From Kineococcus siccus (GTDB lineage Bacteria; Actinomycetota; Actinomycetes; Actinomycetales; Kineococcaceae), in assembly GCF_009906795.1 (NCBI RefSeq), contig NZ_JAAALN010000002.1, positions 16,674 through 80,673 on the forward strand: a stretch of DNA of 64,000 bases, in the 5' to 3' direction. The translations under genes and the position numbers were made by a program. Below are positions 19,519 to 54,513 of this stretch, one piece after another. Each line of letters begins with the position of its first letter. Positions within the stretch are counted from its first letter, which is position 1. A model generated the notes under the pieces. The model made no database searches and had not been told where the DNA came from. It saw only the letters and a list, made by a program, of their open reading frames with translations.

Positions 19519-19603
19519 GCGCCCATCGTGGCACCGGGCCCCGCCGGGCGGCAGCCCGCCGCGGGCCCGGCGTGCTGGTTCGACGGCCCGCCGGTCCGTC
19601 GCC

Positions 19604-19609
19604 TAGACT
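19604..19609 (+). promoter_or_regulatory. -10 element of the tRNA-Trp/secE-nusG unit
   Basis: TAGACT lies 60 bases before tRNA-Trp. A weak TTCGAC (19579-19584) with 19-base spacing could be the -35. The same -10 hexamer precedes rplK and rplJ. Confidence 0.5.
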
Positions 19610-19668
19610 CCCCGACGGCGGGTTGCACCGCCGTGGTGACGCACGCCCCAGGGGGTGCCGAGCCGCTC

Positions 19669-19741
19669 AGGGCAGTGGCGCAATTGGTAGCGCACCGGTC
19701 TCCAAAACCGGCGGTTGTGGGTTCGAGTCCCTCCTGCCCTG
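19669..19741 (+). tRNA. tRNA-Trp (CCA)
   Basis: Acceptor AGGGCAG pairs with CTGCCCT, the D arm contains GGCGCAATTGGTAGCGC, the anticodon loop TCTCCAAAA gives CCA, and the T loop is TTCGAGT. The discriminator is G and the 3' CCA is not encoded. Position just before secE is the standard actinobacterial order. Confidence 0.97.
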
Positions 19742-19812
19742 CGAGCAGCACCGTGTCCGTGCCGGACGCGACCGCACGACGAGCACCGGAGACGGTGGGG
19801 AGCAGGGTCGAC

Positions 19813-20052
19813 GTGAGCGAGACGACGAAGACCGAGGAGGACCACGCCTCGGCCAAGCGCCGCACGGGCGTGCTGCTCTTCCTGCGCCAGGTCGTCGAGG
19901 AGCTGCGCAAGGTCGTCTGGCCGACCCGCCGCGACCTGCTCAACTACACCGCGGTCGTCCTGGTCTTCGTCGTCGTGATGATGCTCTTCGTGTCCGCGCT
20001 GGACTACGGCATCGGCAAGCTCGTCCTGCTGGTGTTCGGGTCCGGTTCCTGA
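19813..20052 (+). CDS. secE: Preprotein translocase subunit SecE
   Basis: The 79-residue single-span SecE stabilises SecY in the SecYEG channel. A charged N-terminus precedes the conserved amphipathic helix LRQVVEELRKVVWPTRRDLL, followed by one membrane helix (about residues 46-66). The GTG at 19813 is preceded by a GGGGAG stretch; the open frame extends far upstream but without family character. It is followed 36 bases later by nusG, the usual secE-nusG pair. Confidence 0.95.
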   Translation: MSETTKTEEDHASAKRRTGVLLFLRQVVEELRKVVWPTRRDLLNYTAVVLVFVVVMMLFVSALDYGIGKLVLLVFGSGS

Positions 20053-20088
20053 CGCGACCACCGAACCCGAAGGAAGCAGGCAAGCACC

Positions 20089-20988
20089 GTGTCCGAGCGC
20101 CCGACCGAGGTCGGCGACCCGTTCGTCGCCACGCAGTCCTACGACGCCGACGACCTGGCCGCTGACCACGAGGCCGACGTCGAGGCCGCCCAGGAGCAGG
20201 CCGCGGACACCCCGGACCTGCCTGTCGAGGACTTCGAGGCCGAGGCGCCCGGCGCCGAGGCCGCGGCCGAGGCGGACGTGCTCGACGCCGTGGCCCCCGA
20301 GGGCGCCGAGACGGCCGAGGACGTGGCCGGTGACCCCGACGCCGCCGTCGAGGACGCCGTCGTCGAGGACGCCGCCGAGGAGGAGGTCGACGAGGCCGAG
20401 GAGTTCCGCAAGCAGCTGCGCCGGATGCCCGGCGAGTGGTTCGTCATCCACAGCTACGCGGGCTACGAGAACCGCGTCAAGACGAACCTCGAGACCCGCA
20501 TGACCTCCCTCAACATGGAGGACTACATCTTCCAGGTCGAGGTCCCCATGGAAGAGGTCGTCGAGGTCAAGAACGGCCAGCGCAAGAACGTCCGGCGCGT
20601 CCGGATCCCCGGCTACGTCCTCGTCCGCATGGACCTCACCGACGAGTCGTGGGGCGCCGTGCGCCACACACCCGGCGTGACGGGCTTCGTGGGCAACACG
20701 CACCAGCCCGTGCCGCTGTCCAACGACGAGGTCTTCTCGATGCTGGCCGCGACGCTCACGCCGAAGCAGGCCAAGACGGCCGACGGCAAGCCCGTGGCGG
20801 CCCAGCCCGAGCGCGTCGTCGACTTCGAGGTCGGCGAGTCGGTCACCGTCATGGAGGGGCCGTTCGAGACCCTCCCGGCGACCATCTCGGAGATCTCCGC
20901 GGACCGCCAGAAGGTCACCGTGCTCGTCTCGATCTTCGGCCGCGAGACCCCGGTCGAGCTGAGCTTCAACCAGGTCGCCAAGATCTGA
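20089..20988 (+). CDS. nusG: Transcription termination/antitermination factor NusG
   Basis: The 299-residue protein binds RNA polymerase and, through its KOW domain, Rho or ribosomal protein S10. Residues 1-105 are a low-complexity Ala/Glu/Asp extension. The NGN domain starts at about 112 with [17 protein letters not shown], contains [12 protein letters not shown] and TGFVGN, and is followed by a short linker insert rich in Lys/Ala. The KOW domain (about 245-299) has [20 protein letters not shown]. Acidic N-terminal extensions are known in actinobacterial NusG but not in E. coli. A hairpin starts ten bases after the stop. Confidence 0.95.
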
Positions 20989-20997
20989 CCCGCCGCA

Positions 20998-21032
20998 CGA
21001 GAGGACCCCGGCCACCGGCCGGGGTCCTCTCG
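20998..21032 (+). terminator. Strong hairpin terminator after nusG
   Basis: A perfect 16-bp stem (20998-21013 with 21017-21032) with an ACC loop begins ten bases after the nusG stop. Its 3' arm is also the first copy of the 17-bp tandem array that follows. Confidence 0.85.
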
Positions 21033-21156
21033 CGTGCGGGGTCCTCTCGCGTGCGGGGTCCTCTCGCGTGCGGGGTCCTCTCGCGTGCGGGGTCCTCTCG
21101 CGTGCGGGGTCCTCTCGCGTGCGGGGTCCTCTCGCGTGCGGGGTCCTCTCGCGTGC
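21021..21156 (+). repeat. Eight perfect tandem copies of a 17-bp unit between nusG and rplK
   Basis: The unit GGGGTCCTCTCGCGTGC repeats without a mismatch at 21021, 21038, 21055, 21072, 21089, 21106, 21123 and 21140, with a ninth start (GGGG) at 21157. The first unit contains most of the 3' arm of the nusG terminator, so every unit can pair with its 5' arm (21000-21009). The array ends 22 bases before the rplK -10 element. Perfect identity suggests recent expansion or copy-number slippage. Confidence 0.97.
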
Positions 21157-21178
21157 GGGGCGCCCCCGGCGCCTCGCG

Positions 21179-21184
21179 TAGACT
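21179..21184 (+). promoter_or_regulatory. -10 element of rplK-rplA
   Basis: TAGACT is followed by GCTGCCACCG, nearly identical to the sequence at the rplJ promoter (TAGACT-GGTGCCACCG at 22609). Seven to eight bases downstream is the expected start of a leader of about 85 bases. No clear -35; the expected position coincides with the end of the tandem array. Confidence 0.6.
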
Positions 21185-21274
21185 GCTGCCACCGGCCTCA
21201 ACCCCTCGTCGCCCGATCCGCGGGCACCGATACGGCCGGCACGCCCCGCACCGGGGCCCGACGGAAGGACACGC

Positions 21275-21706
21275 ATGCCCCCCAAGAAGAAGGTCTCCGG
21301 CCTCATCAAGCTGCAGATCAAGGCCGGCATGGCGACTCCCGCCCCGCCGATCGGTCCCGCGCTCGGTCAGCACGGCGTGAACATCATGGAGTTCTGCAAG
21401 GCGTACAACGCCCAGACCGAGGCCCAGCGCGGGAACGTCATCCCCGTCGAGATCACGGTCTACGAGGACCGCTCCTTCACCTTCATCACGAAGACCCCGC
21501 CAGCCGCGGAGCTCATCAAGAAGGCCGCCGGCGTCGACAAGGGCTCGGGTGAGCCCCACGTGAAGAAGGTCGCGAACCTCACGCAGGCCCAGGTCCGCGA
21601 GATCGCCGAGACCAAGCTGCAGGACCTCAACGCCACGGACGTCGAGATGGCCTCGCGCATCATCGCCGGCACCGCCCGGTCGATGGGCATCACCGTCTCC
21701 GACTGA
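21275..21706 (+). CDS. rplK: Ribosomal protein uL11
   Basis: The 143-residue L11 binds 23S rRNA at the GTPase-associated centre and is the target region for thiopeptides. It starts [19 protein letters not shown] and shows the proline-rich N-terminal [19 protein letters not shown] and the rRNA-binding C-terminal domain ending in [21 protein letters not shown] ribosome-binding site precedes the ATG. With rplA it forms a two-gene unit; L1 commonly represses this pair in bacteria. Confidence 0.97.
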
Positions 21707-54012: not shown

Positions 54013-54513
54013 GTGCCCACGCTCGTCGTCGTCCGCCACGCCAAGGCCGACACGCCTCCCGGACTGCAGGACATCGCGCGGCCGCTGTCGGCGCGCGGGC
54101 GCGCCGACGCCGAGGAGGCCGGGCGCTGGCTCGCCTCCGCGGTCGGGGCGCCGGAGCTCCTGCTCACCTCGCCGTCGCGGCGCACCGAGGAGACGACGGC
54201 GCGGCTGCTCGGCACCTGGGGCGCCGACCCCGTCGTCGTGGACGAGGAGCGCCTCTACGAGGCCTCGCTGGGCGACCTGCTGCGGATCGTGCGCGGCCTG
54301 GACACCGAGAGCGCCGAGGCCACGGTCGTGCTCGTGGGGCACAACCCCGGGGTCAGCGCGCTCGTGGAGGCCCTGACGGGGGAGGTCCAGCAGCTGCGGA
54401 CCTGCCAGGTCGCGGTCGTCGCCGTCGAGGGCGCGTGGGCCGACGCCGACTCGACGTCCTGCGCGCTGCGCAGCACCCACACCGCCCGGGCGGAGGGCTC
54501 CGCCTCCTCCTGA
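54013..54513 (+). CDS. SixA-type phosphohistidine phosphatase
   Basis: The 166-residue histidine-phosphatase-superfamily protein has the N-terminal VVVRHAKAD (catalytic RHG-type His) and GHNPGVSALVEALTG with the second His, and the characteristic DIARPLSARGRADAEEAGRW. SixA removes phosphate from phosphohistidine proteins; the target here is unknown. GTG at 54013 is six bases after CACGCT, consistent with a leaderless mRNA. Confidence 0.85.
   Translation: MPTLVVVRHAKADTPPGLQDIARPLSARGRADAEEAGRWLASAVGAPELLLTSPSRRTEETTARLLGTWGADPVVVDEERLYEASLGDLLRIVRGLDTESAEATVVLVGHNPGVSALVEALTGEVQQLRTCQVAVVAVEGAWADADSTSCALRSTHTARAEGSASS

Follow-up and report, generated by a model that had tools for sequence, protein, structure and literature searches.

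A 17-bp tandem array, probably a lineage-specific minisatellite grown from a hairpin arm, between nusG and rplK of Kineococcus siccus

Bacterial minisatellites and variable-number tandem repeats consist of short units repeated perfectly head to tail in intergenic DNA; their copy number differs among relatives and slippage is their likely source. The array described here, eight identical 17-bp units between nusG and rplK of K. siccus, resembles them in each of these respects and departs from the usual case in that what is repeated is an arm of a hairpin conserved at the junction of core genes. It belongs to the known minisatellite kind, and its birthplace, a hairpin arm, is unusual. A comparable actinobacterial case is provided by Mycobacterium tuberculosis, in which, according to an excerpt of one study, tandem repeats in the promoters of dop, lpdA and cysG vary in copy number within populations (PMC12817950). 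In both cases a tandem repeat precedes a gene and might act as an expression dial; however, the M. tuberculosis unit is described in that excerpt as promoter sequence (PMC12817950), whereas here the unit consists of hairpin-arm sequence and the array does not include the –10 element. The hairpin itself is like an intrinsic terminator in being a strong, GC-rich stem–loop directly after a gene, with a conserved position and compensatory changes, but unlike one it has no U-tract. Among the matches listed from the open-licence literature, as represented by titles and the beginnings of abstracts, there is no account of the amplification of a terminator arm, which is weak evidence of absence.

The window is the whole stretch of DNA that was analysed, 64,000 nucleotides of a K. 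siccus contig, and its features around the array are collected in Table 1. The L1 product encoded downstream is, like NusG and L11, identified by an NCBIfam equivalog, and the best four matches of NusG among named genomes are from Kineococcus species, with K. rubinsiae first (89%). The closest genome in our genus sample (G007), the spacer of which is identical to that of K. rubinsiae locus L009, is referred to below as the sister.

Table 1 Features of the nusG–rplK junction (window coordinates)
Feature	Position	Strand	Assignment or remark
nusG	20089..20988	+	NCBIfam TIGR00922 equivalog, E 2e-60
Post-nusG hairpin, perfect 16-bp stem, 3-nt loop, without U-tract	20998..21032	+	
Tandem array, 8 identical 17-bp units CGGGGTCCTCTCGCGTG and a partial ninth (CGGGG)	21020..21160	+	
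Seven extra units relative to the sister, 119 bp; boundary arbitrary within the period	21037..21155	+	
Putative rplK –10, TAGACT	21179..21184	+	Without recognisable –35
rplK leader; start guessed from the –10	21190..21274	+	First ~60 bases strongly conserved in the genus
rplK (L11)	21275..21706	+	NCBIfam TIGR01632 equivalog, E 1.3e-61

The units, GGGGTCCTCTCGCGTGC, begin at 21021, 21038 and so on up to 21140, form eight identical copies that end at 21156 and contain no A at all. Read in the register CGGGGTCCTCTCGCGTG, the array spans 21020–21155 plus CGGGG, which gives 8.3 copies with 100% matches and a TRF score of 282. At periods of 5–60, the longest self-match run in the window is 124 bases, at period 17; over the same periods, 100 resamples of the window under a first-order Markov model reached a maximum of 17. 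Both unit size and identity (17 bp, 100%) fall within the range of minisatellites (units of about 10–100 bp, high identity). An earlier sequence-only reading had described a 16-bp stem, eight perfect 17-bp repeats and a gap of 22 bases between the end of the array and the TAGACT at 21179–21184, all of which we confirmed on the sequence.

That reading had also held that a repeat scattered widely, with no link to terminators, would speak against its proposal. Throughout the whole genome, the 17-mer has eight exact matches, all inside the array, and no match with 0–1 mismatch outside it, so that close copies occur only here. Five matches have two mismatches, of which one is the hairpin’s own 5′ arm and four lie outside the locus. 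At up to three mismatches, 99 matches were found genome-wide compared with 36 for the reversed pattern, an excess larger than the eight copies. After the array, the strongest tandem repeat in the window (54118–54183, score 74) comprises 2.1 copies of a 32-bp unit that begins with the dyad GCCGGAGCGCCGGC.

The stem arms of the hairpin, CGAGAGGACCCCGGCC (20998–21013) and GGCCGGGGTCCTCTCG (21017–21032), are perfect reverse complements separated by the loop ACC, and the core has a folding energy of –36.2 kcal/mol, as expected of the stable GC-rich stem–loop of an intrinsic terminator. A hairpin stands straight after nusG in 11 of the 11 genus genomes (14–21 pairs, –32 to –44 kcal/mol). With these genomes aligned by plain MAFFT, both sides are altered with pairing kept in 6 of 9 consensus pairs and the other 3 are invariant; of the 99 pair cells, 10 are broken or contain a gap. 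Because it is conserved in every genome and carries compensatory changes, the hairpin is likely to be under selection. The name ‘terminator’, given to it in the sequence-only reading, holds for the stable hairpin after nusG but not for a U-tract: there is 1 T in the 8 bases 3′ of the stem (at most 3 in any of the 11 genomes), and a scan of 20900–21400 returned no canonical terminator. Mycobacterial polymerase is said, in work by Czyz from 2014, to require a U-tract, and NusG reportedly assists at weak terminators. The hairpin may stop polymerase alone, stop it with the help of NusG or serve only in the protection of the 3′ end; ‘terminator’ and ‘promoter’ are likely to be fitting names at this locus.

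Our genus sample comprised 11 genomes, one per species and including the window’s own, and all 11 nusG–rplK spacers were read. The array is present in the window’s own genome only; the other ten have a single hairpin and no tandem copies in this spacer. A pattern of two units, searched with a tolerance of three mismatches, matched 1 of 12 family genomes, again the window’s own. Named genomes contributed 80 nusG loci (four from Kineococcus), of which 78 gave parsed spacers, and none of these contains a tandem repeat scoring more than 42, compared with 282 for the array. In Kineosporia, 3 of 5 loci (L014, L029 and L077) have spacers of just 32–34 bases without a strong fold.

Comparison with the sister, which has one copy where K. 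siccus has eight, specifies what was gained. Between the perfect stem and the –10, the sister has 27 bp and K. siccus 146 bp, a difference of 119 bp or 7 × 17. When seven units (119 bp) were deleted in a script, the remaining 167 bases were colinear with the 164 of the sister, and thus exactly seven units were gained. The single unit of the sister differs at two neighbouring positions; as all eight local units share the local version, they were amplified or homogenised after the split from the sister. Selection or gene conversion could be an alternative cause of the identity of the eight units.

Two further proposals of the sequence-only reading are supported by these results: that the array is an amplified 3′ arm of the hairpin, which unit 1 contains, and that it arose by slippage, the natural source of exactly seven units gained in a single lineage. 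In the sister, CGGGG occurs at each end of the one unit, the two occurrences being spaced by exactly 17 bp, and the first duplication would, to judge from this arrangement, have used that pair. Direct repeats of 5 bp at 10–30-bp spacing occur in 9 of the 11 nusG–rplK spacers of the genus, and being so common they make the CGGGG seed permissive rather than proof. Further growth would be expected once identical units were present, as such units should slip easily. We place at roughly 77% the probability that the array is a lineage-specific minisatellite, likely generated when strand slippage duplicated the hairpin’s 3′ arm, and is predicted to leave both the hairpin and the probable promoter of rplK intact. 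It is likely to be recent, probably near-neutral and otherwise an ordinary minisatellite.

At whatever copy number, the periodicity of the array would keep the hairpin complete at the left edge and the unit nearest the promoter constant at the right edge. As both edges are preserved at any length, growth should cost little and add distance only. The transcript is predicted to fold on copy 1 at any copy number, and the sole physical change predicted is that the hairpin would lie 146 instead of 27 bp upstream of the –10. The array would thus be a clean example of a minisatellite that is born from one arm of a conserved hairpin and grows while that hairpin and the following promoter-like site stay unbroken. 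With hairpin ends taken from RNAfold boundaries, on which the relatives’ gaps rest because a perfect-stem search overlooks the wobble-containing hairpins of several of them, the hairpin ends 23–44 bp before the –10 in the ten relatives, compared with 143 bp here. RNA polymerase probably has a footprint large enough to cover a promoter from a hairpin at 23–44 bp, and in the ten relatives a polymerase halted at the U-poor hairpin is expected to overlap the rplK promoter; in K. siccus it would sit about 120 bp farther away. This short arrangement is predicted in all ten relatives examined, and if distance mattered, the locus would offer a simple measure of the effect of polymerase halting at a gene end on a promoter 23–44 bp downstream. 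Polymerases that remain on the DNA after release of the RNA, and then restart at nearby promoters, are described in an excerpt of another study (PMC6978380), and the distance between hairpin and promoter could therefore matter either way.

The putative –10 is TAGACT in 9 of the 11 genus genomes, and TAAGAT or TACACT in the others; no sigma-70-like hexamer pair was found in 20900–21400. Downstream of it, the rplK leader is nearly invariant at 21190–21246 in the 11 genus genomes and contains an internal hairpin (GCCCG-ATCCG-CGGGC). Double changes were seen in 0 of its 10 pairs, the segment being too invariant for covariation; it is possibly an autoregulatory site for L1 or L11. An Rfam search of 20900–21400 at E ≤5 gave 10 matches, all under the gathering score and 8 of them microRNA families, with no ribosomal-protein leader at 21190–21246 among them. 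On the minus strand, an open reading frame of 575 amino acids (19603–21330) crosses the array with a phase that rotates from unit to unit (RERTPHARGPRTREDPA repeats) and is probably a chance product of high-GC DNA. The idea that the array’s own RNA forms a special rod was considered and rejected: seven units fold at –73.4 kcal/mol, a value equalled or bettered by 149 of 400 shuffled 17-mers repeated seven times.

Several other explanations of the array were weighed. The sequence-only reading had suggested that the 5′ arm of the nascent transcript pairs with any of the eight copies, which would make termination redundant, delayed or leaky, and an 11-nt complement of the 5′ arm is indeed present in each unit. 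Equilibrium folding speaks against the suggestion: the probability of pairing for the 5′ arm is 0.999 with copy 1 and no more than 1.4e-7 with copies 2–8, and forcing the arm onto another copy costs 11.2–17.3 kcal/mol. Copy 1 is also transcribed first; its stem closes on a loop of 3 nt with 16 perfect pairs, compared with 13 pairs for the other copies, and partial transcripts adopt the copy-1 fold at every length folded from 47 nt. Given this dominance of copy 1, redundant or delayed pairing is not expected, and we regard the suggestion as highly improbable. Selection for a tuning repeat, the copy number of which would set rplK–rplA output either by the distance separating the promoter from a halting polymerase or by way of the DNA in front of that promoter, is a better candidate, although an unlikely one. 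It would give a meaning to the move of the hairpin end from 23–44 bp before the –10, where a polymerase could cover the promoter, to 143–146 bp, and the excerpt on M. tuberculosis reports copy-variable tandem repeats in promoters (PMC12817950); against it, the array occurs in just 1 of the 11 genus genomes and its unit carries no promoter elements, the –10 at 21179 lying 22 bases beyond the array. Slightly less probable again is a self-preserving spacer dial, in which slippage of the hairpin’s own 3′ arm would shift the nusG hairpin and the rplK promoter apart, leaving both untouched, and so free the L11–L1 promoter from polymerases halting after nusG, copy number would tune the output of ribosomal proteins, and a like mechanism could operate at other junctions such as rpsB–tsf.

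An error of assembly, in the copy number or in the array as a whole, seems improbable to us. The genome is a draft of 495 contigs, so the count of eight may be off, and a perfect array of 141 bp is difficult for short reads. The flanks of the array are nevertheless colinear with the sister, and a tandem repeat is more likely to be collapsed by an assembly error than expanded, as an excerpt concerning one M. tuberculosis assembly indicates (PMC12817950). Of the same very low order of probability as pairing with any copy is a series of binding sites for a regulator. The unit is perfectly repeated upstream of a likely promoter, but the genome holds no other site at 0–1 mismatch and only the four two-mismatch sites outside the locus, and the unit is fully explained as a hairpin arm. 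The spacing, moreover, puts successive units out of helical phase, 17 bp being about 1.6 helical turns.

With regard to the minisatellite reading, short near-perfect arrays (at least 97% identity, at least 2.5 copies, unit of at least 8 bp) are an ordinary feature of the genomes sampled: 4 were found in 427.8 kb of the K. siccus genome, including the present array, and 8 in 400 kb of G009, another genome of the genus. The nusG–rplK array has the top score of these 12 (282, followed by 216) and is thus of unusual length; a 5-bp repeat excluded by the cut scores 325. Below the cut, the K. siccus sample has two arrays of 95–96% identity, with 6.7 and 5.8 copies of 18 bp, and in G009, where 14 arrays reach at least 95% and 8 at least 97%, CCACG ×36 falls outside the cut. 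A second array of the same genome (L114:3059–3110, that is, G000:C478:3059–3110) has 3.2 copies of the 16-bp unit CCTGATCGACCACCGT and is situated between the hairpin after rpsB and tsf (rpsB, S2, was read by eye; tsf matches TIGR00116). The rpsB–tsf spacer was read in 3 of the 11 genomes (K. siccus, the sister and G001), and the array is absent in the sister and in G001. For array region L106, the sister has two short matches only; for L105, the flanks are about 1 kb apart in the sister compared with 141 bases here. In G009, one 20-kb segment (L128, G009:C1:350001–370000) is dense in short arrays, including CCACG ×36 and 12-mers in 9–10 copies.
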